Source: Ancylobacter lacus (lineage in GTDB: Bacteria > Pseudomonadota > Alphaproteobacteria > Rhizobiales > Xanthobacteraceae). From it: a stretch of DNA of 64,000 nt. Positions 13,653-22,833 of the stretch are shown here, in pieces; position 1 is the stretch's first letter, and every line of letters begins with the position of its first letter. The notes beneath the pieces are model-generated. The model ran no database searches, had not been told where the DNA came from, and saw only the letters and a program-made list of their open reading frames with translations. Location of the stretch: NCBI RefSeq assembly GCF_018390635.1, contig NZ_JAHBGE010000044.1:124001-188000 (forward strand). Direction: 5' to 3'. The translations under genes were made by a program, and so were the position numbers.

Positions 13653-13934
13653 ATGATCGTTTCGACCAAAGGCAAGTTCGTCGAAGCGGTCATCGCCGGC
13701 AAGGCGCCGAAGGGTTTCACCGCCGATATCCTCCGAAGCGCCGAGCGCCGCCTGCGTGCCGTTGATGCCGCCGTCGTGCTGGATGATCTGCGCTCCCCGC
13801 CGGGCAACCATCTGGAAGCCCTCTCGGGGGATAGAGCCGGCCAGCATTCGATCCGCATCAACGATCAATGGCGCATTTGCTTCCGCTGGACCGAGGCAGG
13901 CCCCGCGGATGTTGAGATTACCGACTACCACTAG
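13653..13934 (+). CDS. higB: HigB-type toxin (RelE superfamily mRNA interferase)
   Basis: A 93-residue small basic protein of the RelE/HigB superfamily, expected to cleave mRNA on the ribosome. The fold is recognisable from KAPKGFTADILRSAERRLRAVDAA at the start and the family's C-terminal pattern HSIRINDQWRICFRW followed by EITDYH, with the Arg, Trp and terminal Tyr-His residues typical of the active HigB subgroup. It comes first in the operon, toxin before antitoxin, as usual for higBA. GAGG lies upstream of ATG 13653. The gene is intact, so the module may be functional. Confidence 0.9.
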   Translation: MIVSTKGKFVEAVIAGKAPKGFTADILRSAERRLRAVDAAVVLDDLRSPPGNHLEALSGDRAGQHSIRINDQWRICFRWTEAGPADVEITDYH

Positions 13935-13950
13935 ACCAAGGAGGGTCGCC

Positions 13951-14262
13951 GTGGCTGTGAACTTCGCTCGTCCCATGCATCCTGGAGAATTTCTCCGGGA
14001 AGAGTACCTCGTTCCGCTCGGCATGAGCCCCGGCAAGCTCGCCAAGGCCCTTGGTCTGCCGCGCACGCGCATCGAGCGTATCGCGCGCGAGGAGATTGGC
14101 ATCTCGACCGACACCGCGCTCCGGCTTGCCCGCTTCTTCTCGACGACGCCGGGTTTCTGGCTCAACCTCCAGCAGGCCTATAACGTCGAGACCGAGGCGC
14201 CGAAGCTGGCGGATGATATCGCCAGGATCGAGCCTTACGCCCCGGTTGGACAGGCGGCCTGA
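13951..14262 (+). CDS. higA: HigA-type antitoxin (XRE family)
   Basis: A 103-residue antitoxin with one Xre-type helix-turn-helix. The family signature MHPGEFLREEYLVPLGMS opens the domain, followed by KLAKALGLPRTRIERI as the DNA-binding helices and FFSTTPGFWLNLQQAYN at the end. It neutralises HigB and represses the operon through the palindromes at 13581-13633. The start is taken as GTG 13951 because AAGGAGGG lies six bases upstream; an ATG nine residues in is the alternative. The gap to higB is 16 bp. Confidence 0.9.
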   Translation: MAVNFARPMHPGEFLREEYLVPLGMSPGKLAKALGLPRTRIERIAREEIGISTDTALRLARFFSTTPGFWLNLQQAYNVETEAPKLADDIARIEPYAPVGQAA

Positions 14263-14533: not shown

Positions 14534-15268
14534 CTATCGCTCCCCCATCCACGGAAAGGCCAGCACGGCGCGGGTGTAGCGTTCGATCAGGGTGCTGAAG
14601 GGGGTGCCGTCGGGCGTCGTCAGCACCGCTCGGTGTTCCAGCACCAGGGGCGGCACTGCGAGCGGGGCGGCGGGCGCCTCGCCGGGAGGTGCCGCGCCGC
14701 CGGGCGCGGACGTTGCGGGCGCCATTTCCCACCCCTCCGGCAGCGGCCGCCACAGCAGCTGGGCGGAGAGGGTGCGGCGGCGGAAGTCGAGCGGCGCCAC
14801 CACCCGGCCGAAGGCGGTGTCGGTGGTCTCCAGCGTGCGGTTCATCTCCGGCGTCAGCCGCTCCGGCAGGTACCAGTTGTCGGCCTCCGAGAGCACCAGC
14901 GTGCCGCAGCGCAGCTGCACGCGGCGGTGATTCACCGGCGCGTCGGGGCCGACCTTCAGCAGGTCGCGGATTTCCGTGCCCGGCGCGTCCCCCGCATCCG
15001 GCAGGCGGTCGGCGACGATCTTGGTGCCGTCCGGGGCGAGGCGATGGGCGCCGCACCAGCGGTCGAGCGTCAGCGTGGCGCTGGCATTGGCAAGGAGGTC
15101 GGCATTGAGGCCCTGCAGCAGCGCCAGCGCCTGAAGCCGGGCAGCCCGGCTGTCGGGCCAGTCCGGCCCGGCCGGCTCCAGCGCCCGGGCCGCCGTCGCG
15201 CCGGCGAGCAGCGCGGGTGGCCCGCCCGCCAGCAGCGCCAGCAGAAGCGCCACCGCGAGCCGGCGCAT
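14534..15268 (-). CDS. Exported protein with chorismate-lyase-like pattern
   Basis: A 244-residue protein with a clear signal peptide (MRRLAVALLLALLAGG... ending in an Ala-rich region near residue 30). The mature part has a pattern resembling the UbiC/DUF98 chorismate-lyase-like fold: RRVQLRCGTLVLSEADNWY, then LTPEMNRTLETTDTAFGRVV and a C-terminal LEHRAVLTTPDGTPFSTLIE strand pair. A classical cytoplasmic chorismate lyase is not exported, so the role must differ, and the similarity is tentative. Start ATG 15268 was chosen because the signal peptide then begins at once; ATG 15307 is an alternative. Single gene, no obvious partner. Confidence 0.55.
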   Translation of the reverse strand: MRRLAVALLLALLAGGPPALLAGATAARALEPAGPDWPDSRAARLQALALLQGLNADLLANASATLTLDRWCGAHRLAPDGTKIVADRLPDAGDAPGTEIRDLLKVGPDAPVNHRRVQLRCGTLVLSEADNWYLPERLTPEMNRTLETTDTAFGRVVAPLDFRRRTLSAQLLWRPLPEGWEMAPATSAPGGAAPPGEAPAAPLAVPPLVLEHRAVLTTPDGTPFSTLIERYTRAVLAFPWMGER

Positions 15269-15591
15269 GCCGGTTGCGGGGCCGCCGACGCTTCCGGCGC
15301 CTGTCATGCCCGTTCCCGCGCCTCTCGCTCCCCCACCTTCGAAATCCGCGTCGTGGCGACGAACCTTCGCCCCGGTCCGCGCCGGCGGCGCGGTCTGCCC
15401 GGCGCGCGGCGCCTCCTCTCGCCGGCGGTGTGAAGGGCCGTCTTTCCGGGGGAAGCCGGCGCGGCGGCCCGGCGGGCGAGGCAGAAGGGCGCGGTTCGGC
15501 ATGGAAAATCTCCGGCGAGGCGGAAAGGCTGCCACGTCGCGGCGGCCGGGGAAACCCGTCCCGTGGCCGGCGGGATGGAACCTTCCGCTCG

Positions 15592-15616
15592 GGAACGGAC
15601 GGGGGTCTGCACCGTT
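15592..15616 (+). promoter_or_regulatory. EcfG-type general stress promoter
   Basis: GGAAC (15592-15596) and CGTT (15613-15616) are separated by 16 bp, an exact match to the alphaproteobacterial EcfG consensus. The expected start point is about 45 bp upstream of the ATG of the proline-rich protein. The surrounding 401-bp gap (15269-15669) holds no other gene. Confidence 0.6.
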
Positions 15617-15669
15617 GACCCCGGCGCACCGGGTCCCTCCCGCGTGCCGAGGCAACGGAGCACCGCCCC

Positions 15670-15920: not shown

Positions 15921-17729
15921 TCAGGCCGCCTGCCGCAGCGGGTCGCCCGTAGCGGCGGGCGGCTCTGCCGTGGGCGCGGCGCGGGCGGCGATCTCCTCGG
16001 GAATGGCGCACCACAGCCGGCGCTGCAGGAAGGCGCCGAGGTCGGGCCGCGCGGTGACGACGGTCAGCGGCACGGCGAGCAGCAGCCCGGCATAGGCCGG
16101 CGCGGCGAGAAGTGGCGCCAGCGGGTCGAGCGCGGCCAGCGCCAGCGCCGCCGCCGCCCCGGTCAGCGTCTCCGGCCAGAAGCGCCGCAATGCCTCCCGC
16201 CAGCCCACGGTGTGGCTGTCGCGGGCCTGCCCGCCCCAGCCGGCGCGGCGCCCGGCCAGCATCCGCCCGAGCGTGACGGTGTTGCCGAAGGCGGCGATGG
16301 GGGTGAACAGCAGGGCGAACACGGTTTCCGCCGCGCAGCCGGCGAGGAAGCGCCCGGCGCCGCCGAACCGCGCCCGCTCGGCCGGGCGGGCCAGCACGTC
16401 CAGCGCGGCGGCGATCTTCGGGGCGAACAGCACGAGAAAGCCGCAGCCCAGCAGGACGAGCGCCGGGCCGGACGCCAGCCAGCCGGCCGCCCCGTCGTGG
16501 CGCAGCGCCTGCACCAGCAGCAGCGTCCACAGCGCGAGATAGAGCGGCGAGCCGAGGAACATCAGCACCGCCAGCACCAGTTGAAGGCGGCTCACCGCCC
16601 GCAGCCCCGGCAGGCCGAGCAGGGCGAGATATTGCAGATTGCCCCGGCACCAGCGGGCGTCGCGGCGCATGTGCTCGATCAGCTCGGTCGGGTTCTCCTC
16701 GAAGCTGCCGGTCTCGTCCGGCTCCACCCGCACCTCGTAGCCGGCGCGGCGCATCAGCACCGCCTCGATCTGGTCGTGGGAGAGGATGGGCCCGGCAAGC
16801 GGGCCACGGCCGGCGATTTCCGGCAGGTCGCAATGGGCGAGGAAGGGCGCGAGCCGCAGCAGGGCGTTGTGGCCCCAATAGGGGCCGCAGTCGGCCTGCC
16901 ACCAGGCGCTGCCCAGCGTGTAGGAGCGCATGCCGAGCCGCATGCCGAACTGGAACAGCCGCGCCAGCGGGCTCGCCGAGGGCCGCCCCACCGCGAGGCT
17001 CTGCAGGATGCCGAGCCGCGGCGTCGCCTCCATGACGCGCGCCATCCGCACCATGCGGGCGCCGGTCATCAGGCTGTCGGCGTCCAGCACGAGGATGAAG
17101 TCGATGCCGGCGAGCGTGGCGCAATGCGCGCGGATATTGCCGGCCTTGAAGCCGGCATTGTCGCGGCGGCGGCGGTAGCGCAGGGCGAGCGGGCTCGCCG
17201 CCGCCAGCGCCGCGGCGCCGGCCTCTTCCGCCGCGGCGAGCGCGGGGTCGTCGGTGTCGGAGAGGATATGCAGCTCGAAGCGCCCGCCCTCCGGCAGGCT
17301 GGCGAGGTCCGCCAGCATCTGCCGGGCATTGCCGAACACCCGGGCGGGGTCCTCGTTGCGGATGCACAGCAGGATCGCGGTGCGCGCCGTCAGCGGCGTG
17401 GCCGTGTCGGCGCCGTGCCGGGCCGGCGGGCACACCGCCGCCACCGGATCGGCCGAGAGCCGCATCAGCGCGAGGCCGACCAGCGCGTTGCCCAGACCGA
17501 GCAGCGGCCAGGGCAGATAGAGCACGAAGGCCAGCAGGAGAGCGATGTCGACCCCGTCGAAGCCGCCCGGCGCCAGCGTCGCGGCGAACAGCGCGACGAG
17601 CCCGGCGCCGGCCGCGGCGAGGCCCAGCGCGAAGCCGCGCCGCCGCCACGCCACCGCGCGCTCGCCGGCTTGTGTTGCCCCGGCGGTGGAGCCGGGTCCG
17701 CCGGTCGGGGTAGGGTGGCTGGCATGCAT
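15921..17729 (-). CDS. mdoH: Glucans biosynthesis glucosyltransferase H
   Basis: A 602-residue inner-membrane glycosyltransferase (family GT2) that polymerises UDP-glucose into the backbone of osmoregulated periplasmic glucans. The catalytic domain sits between membrane segments: ILLCIRNEDPARVF, then LVLDADSLM with the DxD, SHDQIEAVLMRRAGYEV, and RWCRGNLQYL as the QxxRW equivalent. Hydrophobic segments lie at about 30-85 and again throughout the C-terminal 250 residues. The partner mdoG/opgG is not in the window. The ribosome site before ATG 17729 is poor. It is divergent from the next gene, sharing a 98-bp promoter region. Confidence 0.92.
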   Translation of the reverse strand: MHASHPTPTGGPGSTAGATQAGERAVAWRRRGFALGLAAAGAGLVALFAATLAPGGFDGVDIALLLAFVLYLPWPLLGLGNALVGLALMRLSADPVAAVCPPARHGADTATPLTARTAILLCIRNEDPARVFGNARQMLADLASLPEGGRFELHILSDTDDPALAAAEEAGAAALAAASPLALRYRRRRDNAGFKAGNIRAHCATLAGIDFILVLDADSLMTGARMVRMARVMEATPRLGILQSLAVGRPSASPLARLFQFGMRLGMRSYTLGSAWWQADCGPYWGHNALLRLAPFLAHCDLPEIAGRGPLAGPILSHDQIEAVLMRRAGYEVRVEPDETGSFEENPTELIEHMRRDARWCRGNLQYLALLGLPGLRAVSRLQLVLAVLMFLGSPLYLALWTLLLVQALRHDGAAGWLASGPALVLLGCGFLVLFAPKIAAALDVLARPAERARFGGAGRFLAGCAAETVFALLFTPIAAFGNTVTLGRMLAGRRAGWGGQARDSHTVGWREALRRFWPETLTGAAAALALAALDPLAPLLAAPAYAGLLLAVPLTVVTARPDLGAFLQRRLWCAIPEEIAARAAPTAEPPAATGDPLRQAA

Positions 17730-17827: not shown

Positions 17828-18805
17828 ATGAACGGATCGGACACCGCCCGCGCCTTCTGGACCGTCGCCCGCCAGCGCGGCGAGCTGCGGGCGGCCGCGC
17901 TCGCCCCGGCGGGTGAGGACGAAGTGATGGTGCGCACGCTCTTCAGCGGCATCAGCCGCGGCACCGAGCGGCTGATCTTCGAGGGGCGGGTGCCGGTCTC
18001 GGAGCAGGGCCGCATGCGCGCCCCGTTCCAGGGCGGGGATTTCCCGTTCCCGGTGAAATATGGCTATGCCGCCGTCGGCGTGGTCGAGGCGGGGGAGGCG
18101 GCGCTGCTGGGGCGCACCGTCTTCGTGCTGCACCCGCATCAGGACCGCTTCGTGGTGCCGGCCGAGGCGGCGCGGCTGCTGCCCGCCGGCCTGCCGCCGC
18201 GCCGGGCCGTGCTCGCCGCCAACATGGAGACGGCGCTGAACGGGCTGTGGGATTCCGGCGCCGGGCCGGGCGACCGCATCGTCGTGGTGGGGGGCGGCGC
18301 GGTCGGGCTGCTGGTCGCCCATCTCGCCGGCCGCCTGCCGGGAACCGAGACCGTGCTGGTGGATGTCGATGCCGCCCGGGCGCCGCTGGCCCGGGCGCTC
18401 GGCGTCGGCTTCGCCGCGCCCGACGCGGTGCCCTCGGGCGCCGATGTGGTGTTCCACGCCAGCGCCAGCGACGCCGGCCTCGCCACCGCGCTCGCCGTTG
18501 CCGGCGACGAGGCGAGCGTGGTGGAAATGAGCTGGTACGGCGCCGGCGCGGTCGCGGCCCCGCTCGGCGGCGCCTTCCATGCCGGCCGGCTGCGGCTGAT
18601 CTCCAGCCAGGTCGGGCGCATCTCGCCCGGACGGCGGCCGCGCTGGTCCTATGCCCGCCGGCTGTCCAAGGCGCTGGAGCTGCTGGAGGACCCCCGGCTC
18701 GACGCGCTGCTGGGCCAGCCCGTGCCGTTCGCGCAGATGCCCGACCGGATGGCGGAGCTGCTCGCCGGGCCGGCGCCGTGCCCGGTCATCGCCTATCCCG
18801 AGTGA
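17828..18805 (+). CDS. Zinc-type alcohol dehydrogenase-like (MDR) oxidoreductase
   Basis: A 325-residue medium-chain dehydrogenase/reductase. The nucleotide-binding motif [18 protein letters not shown] lies at about 152-170, preceded by the substrate-domain segment [13 protein letters not shown]. The usual zinc motif GHE is absent (KYGYA at its place), so it may work without catalytic zinc. It is the first gene of a four-gene plus-strand group (MDR, PTPS-like, glycosyltransferase, methyltransferase). Context suggests a redox step on a pteridine-like or polyol intermediate; the substrate is unknown. A bacteriochlorophyll-type BchC role is unlikely because no photosynthesis genes are present. 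Confidence 0.75.
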
Positions 18806-18866
18806 ACAGGCCGGCGTTCCGTTGCGTAGACAGAACGCGAGGCCGGCGAAAAGGAGAGACCCGCCC

Positions 18867-19268
18867 ATGTACGCCATCGAGGTGCGCGACCACATCATGA
18901 TCGCCCATTCCTTCCGGGGGGCGGTGTTCGGCCCGGCGCAGGCGCTGCACGGCGCGACCTTCGTGGTCGACGTCGCCTTCTTCCGGGAGGAGCTGGACGC
19001 CGACGGCATCGTGGTCGACATCGGCCTCGCCCATGAGGCGCTGAAGGCGGTGCTGGCGCCGCTGAACTACCGCAACCTCGACGAGGTGCCGGCCTTCGCC
19101 GGCCGCAACACCACCACCGAGTTCCTCGCCCGCCACATCTTCGACAGCCTCGCCGCGGCGATCCGTGACGGCCGGCTGGGGGAGGGCGCCCGGGCGATCG
19201 GCCGGCTGCGGGTGAACCTGCACGAAAGCCATGTCGCCCGCGCCTGGTACGAGGCGGAGCTGGATTGA
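18867..19268 (+). CDS. Divergent 6-pyruvoyltetrahydropterin synthase-fold protein
   Basis: A 133-residue member of the PTPS/QueD (T-fold) superfamily. The overall pattern is clear: HSF with His14, the HG motif (His28-Gly29), [13 protein letters not shown], the NTTTEFLA helix and a C-terminal [10 protein letters not shown] with Glu120. Yet key residues differ from active PTPS/QueD: Ala24 replaces the catalytic Cys, Ala30 the third zinc His, and Asn67-Tyr68 the catalytic Asp-His pair. It thus probably catalyses a different reaction or binds a pterin without turnover. AAGGAGAG at 18851-18858 supports ATG 18867. It ends four bases before the glycosyltransferase ATG. Confidence 0.8.
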
Positions 19269-19272
19269 GCCG

Positions 19273-20319
19273 ATGCGGCGGCTCGCCTTTGCCATTCCCG
19301 GCGATCTCGCCCTCCCCACCGGGGGCTATGGCTATGACCGCCGGCTCATCGCCGGGCTGGCCGGGCTCGGCTGGGAGGTGGAGCACGTCGCCCTGCCGGC
19401 CGGCTATCCCGAGCCGGACGAGGCCGCCCGCGCCGCCACCCGCGAGCGGCTCGCCCGCATCGCCCCCGGCGTGCCGGTGATGGTCGACGGGCTGGCCTTC
19501 GGTGTGATGGCGGAGGAGGCGGCGGTGCTCTCGCGGCTGCGCCCGCTGGTGGCGCTGGTGCACCACCCGCTCGCCCACGAGACCGGGCTGCCGGCCACCC
19601 GCGCCGCCCGGCTGCGGGCGAGCGAGACCGCCGCCCTCGCCCATGCCGCCGCCGTGGTGGTGACGAGCCCGGCCACCGCCGCGGCCCTCGCCGCCGACTT
19701 CGCGGTGCCGCCGGGGCGCATCACCGTGGCGGTGCCGGGCACCGACCGCGCCGCCCCGGCGCGCGGCTCGGGCGGGCCGGGGGTGCGGCTGCTGAGCGTG
19801 GGCTCGCTGCTGCCGCGCAAGGGCCATGGCGATCTCGTCGCGGCGCTGGCCGGCCTCGCCGCGCTGGACTGGAGCCTCGACATCGTCGGCGACGACACGC
19901 TGGACCCCGCCCATGCCGCGCAACTGCGGGCCGGGGTGGCGGCGCGGGGGCTGGGCGCGCGCATCCGGCTGCACGGCGCGCTGCCCCGCGCGGCGCTGGA
20001 GACGTTCTATGACGGGGCCGATCTCTTCGTCCTCGCCTCGCATTATGAAGGCTACGGCATGGCCTATGCCGAGGCGCTGGCCCACGGCCTGCCGGTGGTC
20101 GGCACCACCGGCGGCGCGGTGGCGCAGACGGTGGGGGAGGGCGGCACGCTGGTCGCCCCCGGCGATGTCGCGGCCCTTGCCGGTGTGCTGCGCCGGCTGA
20201 TCGCCGATGCGCCGTTCCGGGCGGAGCGGGCGGCGGCGGCGCGCCGGGCCGGCGCCGCCCTGCCGGACTGGGACCAGACCGCGGCCCGCGTCGCCGCCAC
20301 CCTCGGGAGCCTTTCATGA
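19273..20319 (+). CDS. GT-B glycosyltransferase (GT4-like)
   Basis: A 348-residue retaining-type glycosyltransferase. The N-terminal GDLALPTGGYGYDRRLIAGL strand and glycine-rich loop bind the acceptor side; the C-terminal Rossmann domain starts at LLSVGSLLPRKGH and ends with ASHYEGYGMAYAEALAHG, which holds the E-x7-E donor-site motif. No membrane segment or signal peptide is seen, so it is cytoplasmic or peripheral. It sits between the PTPS-like gene (4-bp gap) and the methyltransferase gene (4-bp overlap). This suggests transfer of a sugar to a pteridine-like product, as bacterial pterin glucosides are known; that assignment is inference. Confidence 0.8.
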   Translation: MRRLAFAIPGDLALPTGGYGYDRRLIAGLAGLGWEVEHVALPAGYPEPDEAARAATRERLARIAPGVPVMVDGLAFGVMAEEAAVLSRLRPLVALVHHPLAHETGLPATRAARLRASETAALAHAAAVVVTSPATAAALAADFAVPPGRITVAVPGTDRAAPARGSGGPGVRLLSVGSLLPRKGHGDLVAALAGLAALDWSLDIVGDDTLDPAHAAQLRAGVAARGLGARIRLHGALPRAALETFYDGADLFVLASHYEGYGMAYAEALAHGLPVVGTTGGAVAQTVGEGGTLVAPGDVAALAGVLRRLIADAPFRAERAAAARRAGAALPDWDQTAARVAATLGSLS

Positions 20320-21131
20320 GTTTTTCCGCCGACTGGCTCGCCCTGCGCGAGCCCGCCGACAACCGTGCCCGCAGCGCCGCGCTGGCGGCGCGGCTGGCGA
20401 TCCGGCTGGGGCTGCGCCGCCCGCTGGTGGTGGTCGATCTCGGCGCCGGCACCGGCGCCAATCTGCGGGCGCTGGCGCCGCATCTGCCGGGGCCGCAGCG
20501 CTGGCGGCTGCTCGACAACGATGCCGGCCTGCTGGAACAGGCGGCGGCCGCCGCCTTCGCCGTGCGCGATGCCACCGGCGGCCCGGTGGAGGTGGAGACC
20601 TGCCTCACCGACCTCGCCGCGCCCGGCTGGGAGGCGCTGGCCGGGGGTGCCGACCTTCTCACCTGCTCGGCCCTGCTGGACCTCGCCGGGCTCGACGTCA
20701 TCGGCCGGATCGCCGCCGCCGCCGCCGGCCGGGCCGCGGTGCTGGCGGTGCTGAGCGTGGACGGGCGCGACGCCATCGCCCCGGAGGACCCGCTCGACGC
20801 CGAGCTGTTCGCCGCCTTCCACGCCCATATGCGCCGGGACAAGGGCCTTGGCCCGGCGCTGGGGTCGCTGGCGCCGGAGGCGCTGGCCGGCCGGCTGGAG
20901 CGCGCCGGCTACGGCGTCGTCACCGCCCGCTCCGACTGGCAGATCGACGCCGCGCGCGAGCCGGCCCTCGCCCGGGAGCTGCTCACCGGCTGGGTCGCGG
21001 CGGTGCGGGAGACGGGGCGCATCGACCCGGCCGCGCTGGATGGGTGGGCATCGCGGCGGCTGGCCGCGGCCGCCGCCGGCTCACTCCACCTGCGGGTCGG
21101 CCATCTCGACCTGCTGGCGCTGCCCGGCTGA
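20316..21131 (+). CDS. Class I SAM-dependent methyltransferase
   Basis: A 271-residue methyltransferase with the Rossmann-fold motif I VVDLGAGTGANLRAL at about 38-52, an acidic motif II (LLDNDAGLLEQA) that binds the ribose, and motif IV-like DLLTCSALLDLAG. The C-terminal half (EALAGRLERAGYGVVTA) covers the substrate side. It overlaps the glycosyltransferase stop (ATGA), so it belongs to the same operon. Its 3' end overlaps the convergent RibD-like gene by 51 bp. Methyl acceptor unknown. Confidence 0.8.
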   Translation: MSFSADWLALREPADNRARSAALAARLAIRLGLRRPLVVVDLGAGTGANLRALAPHLPGPQRWRLLDNDAGLLEQAAAAAFAVRDATGGPVEVETCLTDLAAPGWEALAGGADLLTCSALLDLAGLDVIGRIAAAAAGRAAVLAVLSVDGRDAIAPEDPLDAELFAAFHAHMRRDKGLGPALGSLAPEALAGRLERAGYGVVTARSDWQIDAAREPALARELLTGWVAAVRETGRIDPAALDGWASRRLAAAAAGSLHLRVGHLDLLALPG

Positions 21132-21968
21132 GCCGGCGTCGGAGAAGTCGCAGTCGAACAGCACGTCGCCGCCCAGCGCGTAGATGCGGGTGGGCGGGCG
21201 GTCGCAGTCGGACAGCCGGCGCGGCCGCTTCAGGCTGAAGCCGGTCGGCCCGTCGCCGAGCAGCACCGGGGCGACGATGAGGTGCAGCCGGTCGAGCGCC
21301 CCGGCGTCGATGAAGCGCGACACGGTCTCGGCCCCGCCCTCGATGAGCTGCCGCCGCAGCCCGGCGGCGTGCAGCGCCGCGACCAGATCGGCGGGGGCGA
21401 AGCCGTCCGCGTCCTCCCGCACCCGCAGCACCTCCACCCCCGGCGCATGCGCCACCCGGGCGCCGGCGCCCACCACCACCACCCGCCGCGCGCCGTCGGC
21501 GCGGAACAGCCGGAGCGTCGGCGGAACCCGGCCGCGACGGTCGATCACCACCCGCGCCGGGTTGTCGCCCTCGACATGGCGGACGTCGAGGCCGGGGTCA
21601 TCGGCGATGGCGGTGGAGGCGCCGATCACCACCGCATCCACCAGCGCCCGCAGCCGGTGCAGGTGGGTGAGGCCGCGGCGACCGTTGATGTAGCGGGATT
21701 CGCCGAGCCCGTCGGCGATGCGCCCGTCCAGCGACTGGCCGAGCTGCGCCACCACGAAGGGGCGCGCCGGGTCGCTGTGCAGCAGCGGGGCGAACAGCGT
21801 GTCGGGCGGGATCGCGATGGCAGGCCGTGCGGCGCGGCCGGGGGCGCCGACCGGCGGCAGGCCGGGCTCCCCATCGGAAAGCTCGCGCGCCGCGCGCCGG
21901 GCGCCCAGCAGGGCGCGCCAGGCCTCGGTGCTCTCGTCGCGGGCGCTTCGGTCGACGTCAAACGGCAT
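21081..21968 (-). CDS. Stand-alone RibD C-terminal-type reductase
   Basis: A 295-residue protein carrying the riboflavin-specific reductase/dihydrofolate-reductase-like domain (RibD_C) from about residue 75: FVVAQLGQSLDGRIA, YINGRRGLTHLHRLRAL, VIGASTAIADDP, then LIEGGAETVSRFIDAG and APVLLGDG. The zinc deaminase half of RibD (HAE, PCxxC) is absent; instead there is an unrelated 70-residue N-terminal region. It therefore probably reduces a pteridine or pyrimidine intermediate rather than serving in riboflavin synthesis. It converges on the PTPS-like/glycosyltransferase/methyltransferase group. Start ATG 21968 has a GGGGA upstream; ATG 21989 is possible. Confidence 0.8.
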   Translation of the reverse strand: MPFDVDRSARDESTEAWRALLGARRAARELSDGEPGLPPVGAPGRAARPAIAIPPDTLFAPLLHSDPARPFVVAQLGQSLDGRIADGLGESRYINGRRGLTHLHRLRALVDAVVIGASTAIADDPGLDVRHVEGDNPARVVIDRRGRVPPTLRLFRADGARRVVVVGAGARVAHAPGVEVLRVREDADGFAPADLVAALHAAGLRRQLIEGGAETVSRFIDAGALDRLHLIVAPVLLGDGPTGFSLKRPRRLSDCDRPPTRIYALGGDVLFDCDFSDAGSAGQRQQVEMADPQVE

Positions 21969-22203
21969 GTCGGTCCCCGGTGGTGGCATCGGGCGGCGAT
22001 TGTCGGGTCGGCCTCGGCGTGGTCTGATCTGGAATCGTTATACGGTCCGGTCGCGCGGCGCTCCACCATGGGTGGCGTGCCGTTCCGGTAAGCTTCCCGT
22101 GATCGGGGGGCCGCCGCCGCGACCGGCGGCGTAGAAGGCAGGCGGCGCCGCAATGGCCGCTCCGCGCGGCGCGGGCGCCGCGCCAGCCGGGAGGAACGTC
22201 GCC

Positions 22204-22833
22204 ATGGCTCGCACCGAGAAGACCCGGATTGAGAAGGCCCGCCCTCAACGGCCCGGCACCGCCGGCGCCCGCGCCGGCAAGGGACCGCACCCGCCGCCCG
22301 GCGCGGAGCCGGCGCGCTACGCCCGTCCGGCCCGGCTGCTGCACTGGGTGATGGCGGTTTTCGTCGTCGGCCTCATACCGGCCGGGCTGATCATGGCGAA
22401 CATGGACAGCGGCCCGCTGCAGGACCGGCTGTTCGTGCTGCACGAATCCTTCGGGGCGCTGGTTCTCGTTCTGGCGCTGGTGCGGCTCGGCTATCGGCTG
22501 CGCCACCCGCCGCCGCCCCTGCCGCCGGAGGTGCCGGCGTGGCAGCGCCGCGCGGCGGGCGCGGTGCATGCGCTCATCTATGCCGCGCTCATCGCCATGC
22601 CGCTGACCGGCTGGGCCGGCACCCATGCCTTCGGCGCGCCGGTGACGATCTTCTGGCTGTTCGACCTGCCGGCCTTCATCGGCAAGGACGAGGCGCTGGC
22701 CGGCCGGCTGTTCAGCCTGCACCTCGCGCTCGGCCTCGCTCTGGGCGGGCTGGTGGTGCTCCACGCCGGGGCGGCGCTGGGCCACCGTTTCCTGCGGCGC
22801 GACACGGTGCTGGCGCGGATGTGGCCACCCTGA
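22204..22833 (+). CDS. Cytochrome b561-family protein
   Basis: A 209-residue inner-membrane di-haem b cytochrome. After a basic, Pro-rich cytoplasmic N-terminus of about 55 residues, four membrane helices follow, with haem-ligand candidates in RLLHWVMAV, VLHESFGAL, LHLALGLAL and LHAGAALGHRF. Such proteins pass electrons from quinol to periplasmic acceptors. GGGAGGAA precedes ATG 22204, which is favoured over an upstream in-frame ATG at 22153. No partner gene (such as a YceI-type periplasmic protein) is adjacent. Confidence 0.88.
   Translation: MARTEKTRIEKARPQRPGTAGARAGKGPHPPPGAEPARYARPARLLHWVMAVFVVGLIPAGLIMANMDSGPLQDRLFVLHESFGALVLVLALVRLGYRLRHPPPPLPPEVPAWQRRAAGAVHALIYAALIAMPLTGWAGTHAFGAPVTIFWLFDLPAFIGKDEALAGRLFSLHLALGLALGGLVVLHAGAALGHRFLRRDTVLARMWPP

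Follow-up and report, generated by a model that had tools for sequence, protein, structure and literature searches.

Organisation of the gene set

The DNA considered here, referred to below as the window, is a stretch of 64,000 nucleotides of the Ancylobacter lacus genome (contig NZ_JAHBGE010000044.1, designated C40, positions 124001-188000), taken from an assembly of 4.6 Mb in 90 contigs. It bears four consecutive genes, encoding respectively an MDR-family dehydrogenase, a protein with the fold of 6-pyruvoyl-tetrahydropterin synthase (PTPS), a glycosyltransferase, and a methyltransferase dependent on S-adenosylmethionine (SAM); and a fifth gene, for a free-standing RibD_C reductase, converges on them. 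An earlier sequence-only reading had taken these genes for an undescribed pathway to a glycosylated and methylated pterin or a related molecule. As described below, the genes form one conserved unit whose linkage is firm, and it is probable, though some way from certain, that the window holds the version of this biosynthetic unit that includes an MdoH-type membrane glucosyltransferase, and that the product is a GTP-derived, pterin-type molecule that is both glycosylated and methylated.

The MDR and PTPS-like genes are 61 bp apart, the PTPS-like and glycosyltransferase genes 4 bp apart, and the glycosyltransferase and methyltransferase genes overlap by 4 bp, so that the four-gene run is operon-like. 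Coordinates and family matches (Table 1) confirm the five genes of the sequence-only reading, and the overlap that it had described between the 3' ends of the methyltransferase and RibD_C genes is exact, at 51 bp (21081-21131). The end that it gave for the RibD_C gene, 21968, is an internal ATG at codon 8, and the open frame extends to 21989. It had passed over the likely membrane part of the system, the MdoH-type protein and the cytochrome b561, although both lie in the window.

Table 1. Genes of the set and their immediate neighbours (positions in the window)
Gene product	Position	Strand	Size, family match and remarks
MdoH-type membrane glucosyltransferase	15921-17729	-	Divergent from MDR gene; probably the membrane component in this lineage
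MDR-family dehydrogenase	17828-18805	+	325 aa; BchC-like, unlike zinc alcohol dehydrogenase
PTPS-like T-fold protein	18867-19268	+	133 aa; PF01242, 85 bits; SCO6650 subfamily
GT4/GT-B glycosyltransferase	19273-20319	+	348 aa; PF00534, 94 bits
Class I SAM-dependent methyltransferase	20316-21131	+	271 aa; PF13649, weak (21 bits, cut-off 27)
Free-standing RibD_C protein, without deaminase	21081-21989	-	302 aa; PF01872, 127.5 bits; convergent with operon
Cytochrome b561 (Ni_hydr_CYTB)	22153-22833	+	112 bits; downstream of RibD_C; probable accessory gene

Linkage and distribution

Within 121 genomes of the same order, that of A. lacus included, the MDR protein found a strong match in 33 (E ≤ 3e-79), and an alignment of the PTPS-like protein likewise gave 33 strong matches (E ≤ 4e-28), in the identical set of genomes; in each of the 33 the two genes lie at neighbouring coordinates. 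The order MDR-PTPS-glycosyltransferase on one strand was kept in all 29 of the loci examined outside the source genome. Separation of the genes in relatives, which the sequence-only reading had named as fatal to its proposal, was looked for and was not what was found. At one locus (L062, in genome G111, C12:180000-198000) a piece of the MDR gene and a piece of the RibD_C gene survive together with an MdoH-type gene, while the PTPS-like, glycosyltransferase and methyltransferase genes are gone; this is a remnant of the unit, as if after deletion.

For the PTPS-like protein the named genomes of GTDB contain at least 585 relatives. The best 80, which were kept, are mostly from Alphaproteobacteria, with others from Burkholderiales, Thauera, Polynucleobacter, Xanthomonas, Wenzhouxiangellaceae and Pseudonocardia, and from one metagenome-assembled genome (MAG) each of Acidobacteria and Gemmatimonadetes; many of these come from MAGs, whose taxon labels may be wrong. 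The gene set itself recurs in Alpha-, Beta- and Gammaproteobacteria, in Actinobacteria, and in MAGs of Acidobacteria and Gemmatimonadetes. The PTPS-like gene served as a marker in samples of other groups: among 197 genomes from the class to which Pseudonocardia belongs, 29 have it (E ≤ 1e-28; 30 at E 0.001), and among 398 from the phylum of the window, 27 (E ≤ 1e-20). It is also carried on plasmids (21 records), and an MDR gene adjoins it in seven of the eight plasmid loci opened; Methylosinus trichosporium OB3b is one of the strains with a plasmid-borne set. On the Streptomyces plasmid NZ_CP108294.1 the PTPS-like gene stands alone, with no partner gene within 10 kb.

Profiles derived from the neighbouring genes were run over 153 loci, of which 143 were counted after removal of four duplicates (L096, L111, L131 and L163) and of six loci that lack the PTPS-like gene: L061, truncated at a contig end; L062, the remnant just described; and L063-L066, weak MDR matches in other surroundings. 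Of the other members of the five-gene set, the 143 loci contain MDR (138), glycosyltransferase (136), methyltransferase (128) and RibD_C (85). Also present are genes for MdoH-type proteins (69), GTP cyclohydrolase II (GCHII; 67), cytochrome b561 (48), FkbM methyltransferase (37) and creatininase (21); for CDP-alcohol transferase (42), flippase-like LPG_synthase_TM (41) and sulfatase-fold proteins (33); and for an inositol-monophosphatase (IMPase) type (6). The MDR gene lies upstream of the PTPS-like gene, on the same strand and within 600 bp, in 138 of the 143 loci, and the glycosyltransferase gene downstream of it, on the same strand and within 700 bp, in 133. As controls, 40 stretches of 18 kb were taken arbitrarily from carrier genomes. 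They contained no MDR, PTPS, glycosyltransferase, methyltransferase, MdoH or cytochrome b561 gene of these families; the only matches to any neighbour family were one weak RibD_C (102 bits) and one weak phosphatase. IMPase genes are not enriched near the set (5 of 111 loci against 1 of 40 controls).

The PTPS-like protein

The nearest solved structure to the PTPS-like protein is SCO6650 of Streptomyces coelicolor (PDB 3d7j), which it matches over its full length (residues 1-130, E = 8.7e-50), with ordinary PTPS and QueD structures ranking far behind. This similarity, together with a shared alteration of the active site, places it in the SCO6650 subfamily. H14 and H28 are kept in all of 143 relatives, and the third zinc position is alanine (A30) in every one. 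Position 22 is glycine (G22) throughout, and the stretch from H14 to position 32 is free of cysteine in all 143; the Asp position of the triad is occupied by N67 (Asp in 2 of 143) and its His position by Y68 (His in 1 of 143). Two glutamates are retained, E85 in 143 of 143 and E120 in 142, with a gap in the remaining sequence. In PTPS these positions are those of the zinc-binding histidines, the Cys-Asp-His triad and the pterin-anchoring glutamates, respectively. The protein therefore shares with QueD and PTPS the T-fold family PF01242 and the two glutamate positions, but it lacks the full set of three zinc-binding histidines and the catalytic triad of the canonical enzymes, and its score with the QueD family model (41.2 bits) is far below the cut-off of 89.25.

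Because a zinc ligand and catalytic residues have been lost, PTPS or QueD chemistry cannot be assumed, and the working pterin chemistry that the sequence-only reading had attributed to the fold is not borne out. As judged from the alignment, alteration of the predicted site is a firm feature of the relatives as a group. The structural study of SCO6650 (2008) reportedly revealed no zinc and no triad, with the pterin-binding site retained, and did not assign a function. The plasmid records name the product of the PTPS-like gene 6-carboxytetrahydropterin synthase and attach a GO term for queuosine; on the evidence of the altered residues this annotation is unsupported, and amounts to a systematic misannotation. 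The window protein is the sole PF01242 match in its own genome, and three other carrier genomes (G043, G083 and G118) have a second, ordinary-looking PTPS match alongside the PTPS-like gene.

The partner enzymes

The MDR protein had no match in Pfam at 0.001. Its best NCBIfam match is the hydroxyethyl-bacteriochlorophyllide dehydrogenase BchC (TIGR01202), at 44.8 bits, well short of the cut-off of 291, so that it is not BchC by that model. Its relatives are annotated as zinc-binding alcohol dehydrogenases, but of the positions that are 95% or more conserved across 135 relatives none is a cysteine; the nucleotide-binding site GxGxxG is kept, as is the D179 that lies behind it. In sequence, then, it looks closer to BchC than to alcohol dehydrogenase. 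The glycosyltransferase is a general member of GT4. The methyltransferase has conserved D41, G45, G47 and D67, and a search of the PDB gave no meaningful relative.

RibD_C is the only domain, with no N-terminal deaminase, in all 44 of the RibD_C proteins scanned (that of the window and 43 of the 84 relatives available outside it), which are therefore not bifunctional RibD. In the PDB their profile comes closest to the DARPP reductases 6p8c and 2azn, although the model for the archaeal-type enzyme (TIGR01508) gives the window protein only 99.4 bits against a cut-off of 186. The window protein resembles the archaeal and fungal type of DARPP reductase (2azn, 6p8c, Rib7, ArfC) in being predicted as a free-standing RibD_C domain; it differs in having some 75 extra N-terminal residues and in lying outside a riboflavin operon. 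Another RibD_C protein, in a frame of 466 residues, is encoded on contig C1 of the same genome. The 2-amino group of the pyrimidine ring is needed for a pterin, and not for a flavin. If the RibD_C protein acts on the product of GCHII, then in the absence of a deaminase this group should stay in place, and a pterin-like rather than a lumazine- or flavin-like product would be expected.

The sequence-only reading had described the set as unaccompanied by riboflavin genes. This is true of the window, but relatives differ: GCHII is encoded near the set in 67 of the 143 loci. In Acidobacteria, Gammaproteobacteria and Actinobacteria GCHII and RibD_C genes sit in the same run as the set. A switch residue in GCHII governs removal of the formyl group: this is removed if the residue is Tyr, and not if it is Met. 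SCO6655, which has been studied as an odd GCHII, is said to have Met in place of Tyr and to stop at the formyl compound. The presumed switch position was assigned by counting along the Escherichia coli enzyme, and the position so chosen then separated the loci; the Tyr before Q-E-G-R was rejected as the switch, Tyr being found there in all rows read.

After removal of duplicates the switch position was read in 66 loci. It is Tyr in 50 of them. Another 15, all actinobacterial, have Met, His or Leu, and every one of these carries a creatininase gene; in the remaining locus (L054) the residue is Leu, creatininase is absent, and the GCHII is of a different, lower-scoring sort. Among the 24 actinobacterial loci with GCHII, the 15 of non-Tyr type all have creatininase and two have a local RibD_C gene; the nine of Tyr type all have RibD_C and none has creatininase. 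To judge from these residues, the pattern fits a GCHII that stops at the formyl stage and needs a separate deformylase. A 2006 study of a Streptomyces GCHII is cited in PMC3509567. GCHII, free-standing RibD_C and creatininase in the loci of relatives together point to a GTP-derived 2-amino-4-oxopyrimidine or pterin-type molecule.

Two alternative membrane modules

The protein encoded divergently from the MDR gene belongs by its model matches to the MdoH type, that of the osmoregulated periplasmic glucan synthases: it exceeds the cut-offs of NF003958 (478 bits, cut-off 419) and NF003962 (467 bits, cut-off 328), and falls below that of NF003963 (683 bits, cut-off 884). Since a second MdoH relative, only 38% identical to it, is encoded elsewhere in the genome (C48:34454-36196), the copy in the window is probably a specialised paralogue. 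Outside Actinobacteria, 84 loci span 17 kb or more; the MdoH type alone is found in 50 of these and the CDP-alcohol transferase alone in 20, with one (L127) having both and 13 neither. The locus of Xanthobacter autotrophicus DSM 432 (L073) is of the MdoH type. Genes for flippase-like and sulfatase-fold proteins accompany the CDP-alcohol transferase, whose catalytic motif is kept in five of five examples examined, and whose best models, still weak, are phosphatidyl- and archaetidyl-transferases; the sulfatase-fold protein had no match in the PDB at E 0.1. The two modules may represent two ways of handing the product to the membrane or cell envelope. Cytochrome b561 relatives occur in 48 of the 143 loci, all of them outside the 32 actinobacterial ones, and the MdoH type is not associated with either FkbM or cytochrome b561 (p 0.49 and 0.51, respectively).

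In five loci from Burkholderiales (L126, L143, L120, L115 and L086) the methyltransferase gene lies on the opposite side, and next to the MdoH-type gene is one resembling an ABC exporter, which hints at export of a glucan-like product. Downstream of the MdoH-type gene in the window lies a gene (14534-15655, - strand, translated from an inner ATG) that has no Pfam match and was not seen as a family common to the loci of the relatives. Beyond it, the stretch 13653-14262 on the + strand holds a gene for a HigB-like toxin (PF05015, 54.5 bits), followed by an overlapping open reading frame (ORF) that resembles a HigA antitoxin.

A proposed pathway and its alternatives

The reactions and product set out here are a proposal from gene content. 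By analogy with the loci of relatives, GCHII would open GTP, yielding APy, a diaminopyrimidine; the enzyme of one actinobacterial clade would probably halt at the formyl form, from which the creatininase-like hydrolase would strip the formyl group. The free-standing RibD_C protein would then reduce the ribosyl side chain to ribityl, the 2-amino group staying in place. The PTPS-like protein, which lacks a complete metal site, could grip the 2-amino-4-oxo ring with its pair of invariant glutamates and close or rearrange a second ring, while the MDR enzyme would oxidise or reduce the side chain. Glycosylation would be the task of the GT4 enzyme, and methylation that of the methyltransferase. Transfer of the product to the membrane or envelope would fall to the MdoH-type glucosyltransferase in this window, and elsewhere to the CDP-alcohol transferase with the flippase-like and sulfatase-fold proteins; the cytochrome b561 suggests a redox role. 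Our guess is that the product is membrane-bound and redox-active. Taken to its full extent, the proposal would have several phyla making a pterin that is glycosylated, methylated and anchored in the membrane, as either a pterin glycolipid or a pterin-capped glucan. GTP would be opened by GCHII, the second ring would be closed by a T-fold enzyme free of metal, and the product would act as a redox carrier of the envelope, with cytochrome b561 serving it; this larger picture is speculative, and we would give it only a small chance of being correct. The glycosylated, methylated, pterin-type pathway of the sequence-only reading survives in outline, given the company of GCHII, RibD_C and creatininase, while a pterin as the end product is something we infer.

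Several observations weigh against this proposal. Compared with the controls all neighbour families except the phosphatase are enriched (GCHII 57 of 111 loci, RibD_C 67 of 111), but the neighbour hidden Markov models were trained on part of the loci in which they were then counted and the p-values ignore relatedness, so that the enrichment shows homology and not independence. Local genes for GCHII and RibD_C are present in just 67 and 85 of the 143 loci, respectively. Five of the 50 Tyr-type loci also carry creatininase, and a local RibD_C gene is absent from 13 of the 15 loci with Met, His or Leu; the Met-type GCHII with creatininase forms one clade in the GCHII tree, so that the link between them represents about one event; and the creatininases score higher with the MftE and creatininase models than with that of the deformylase ArfB. 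The division between the membrane modules, for which p is 9e-10, corresponds to only about two changes on the MDR tree, which implies that the modules mark two old lineages, with a swap or two, and were not replaced independently many times over.

The source genome itself, estimated to be 99.6% complete, has no recognisable canonical GCHII. PF00925 has only two matches in it: a RibB protein (C33:18600-20000), the GCHII half of which has lost the zinc cysteines, and a protein (C40:21700-23500) that looks to be of the uracil-catabolism type and is encoded next to an ORF resembling uracil phosphoribosyltransferase. In a genome of the same genus (G077) a cluster-type GCHII gene lies beyond RibD_C, yet with this GCHII as query the best match in the source genome is the second of these proteins, at 25 bits. 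A strong GCHII (>160 bits) is found in 18 of 29 carrier genomes; 11, including the source genome, have none. The assembly may lack the gene, the degenerate protein may do the work, or another enzyme may open GTP.

Such gaps lend some weight to the idea that the unit modifies an envelope glycan or lipid with a non-pterin core, the T-fold protein now binding some other ligand that resembles a purine or pyrimidine, or serving a structural role, with GCHII and RibD_C as frequent but dispensable neighbours. The prevalence of MdoH-type and CDP-alcohol transferase genes (69 and 42 of the 143 loci) and the loss of the PTPS catalytic site would suit this idea, as would the many loci that lack GCHII. 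We nevertheless think it unlikely, if worth keeping in view, because the glutamates that would anchor a pterin are invariant, GCHII and RibD_C are strongly enriched over the controls, and they lie in the same run as the set in Acidobacteria, Gammaproteobacteria and Actinobacteria. A different possibility, which we regard as improbable, is that the product is a soluble, secreted pterin glycoside of the cyanobacterial or Chlorobium type, made from dihydroneopterin triphosphate of the folate branch, and that the membrane genes serve another purpose. The co-occurrence of a glycosyltransferase, a PTPS fold and a methyltransferase is in keeping with this, and there are reported precedents in the pterin glycosides of cyanobacteria (PMC13259868) and the pteridine glycosyltransferase of Chlorobium tepidum (PMC5683033). 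But the PTPS-like protein has neither the zinc site nor the triad needed for dihydroneopterin triphosphate, and the linked cyclohydrolase is GTP cyclohydrolase II, not I.

That the cluster is a misread queuosine (QueD) or riboflavin gene group is very improbable. The plasmid annotations and the fact that the source genome has no other PTPS-family protein speak for it; but the QueD score (41 bits against 89) and the loss of zinc ligand and triad across the 143 relatives, with an ordinary PTPS also present in some of the other genomes, largely refute queuosine, and riboflavin was rejected since the RibD_C protein has no deaminase and another RibD_C protein is encoded on contig C1. Chance neighbourhood without common function can be practically dismissed, being refuted by co-occurrence in 33 of 33 genomes, conserved order in 29 of 29 loci, recurrence across phyla and the empty controls. 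A GTP-derived, pterin-type product that is glycosylated and methylated remains our preferred interpretation of the cluster.

Relation to known systems and significance

To call the pathway undescribed was too strong, since the structure of the homologue SCO6650 has been solved; the cluster is a variant of a partly described orphan cluster. Its likeness to the SCO6650-SCO6655 region of S. coelicolor rests on SCO6650 as the best PDB match of the PTPS-like protein, SCO6655 being a neighbour of SCO6650; a set with creatininase and GCHII is also present on a Streptomyces fungicidicus plasmid. The Streptomyces type differs in having creatininase, CDP-alcohol transferase and a local GCHII, where the window has instead RibD_C, the MdoH type and cytochrome b561. 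Toxoflavin-type pathways employ GCHII, RibD and a methyltransferase; they may be likened to the present set in that the product of GCHII, a RibD-type protein and methylation would serve a special metabolite, but the window set lacks the deaminase, and has PTPS-like, glycosyltransferase, MDR and membrane genes instead. The C. tepidum enzyme (PMC5683033) has pterin glycosylation in common with the pathway proposed for the window; the cluster is unlike a biopterin route. No paper on this gene set was found among the open-access papers searched, subscription journals being mostly uncovered.

If the proposal is correct, these genes would define a sizeable cofactor- or lipid-like pathway, its marker being present in 33 of 121, 29 of 197 and 27 of 398 genomes in the three samples. 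The Streptomyces enzymes SCO6650 and SCO6655 would gain a context, and the alternation of MdoH and CDP-alcohol transferase modules would connect pterin chemistry with the cell envelope in a way open to experiment.

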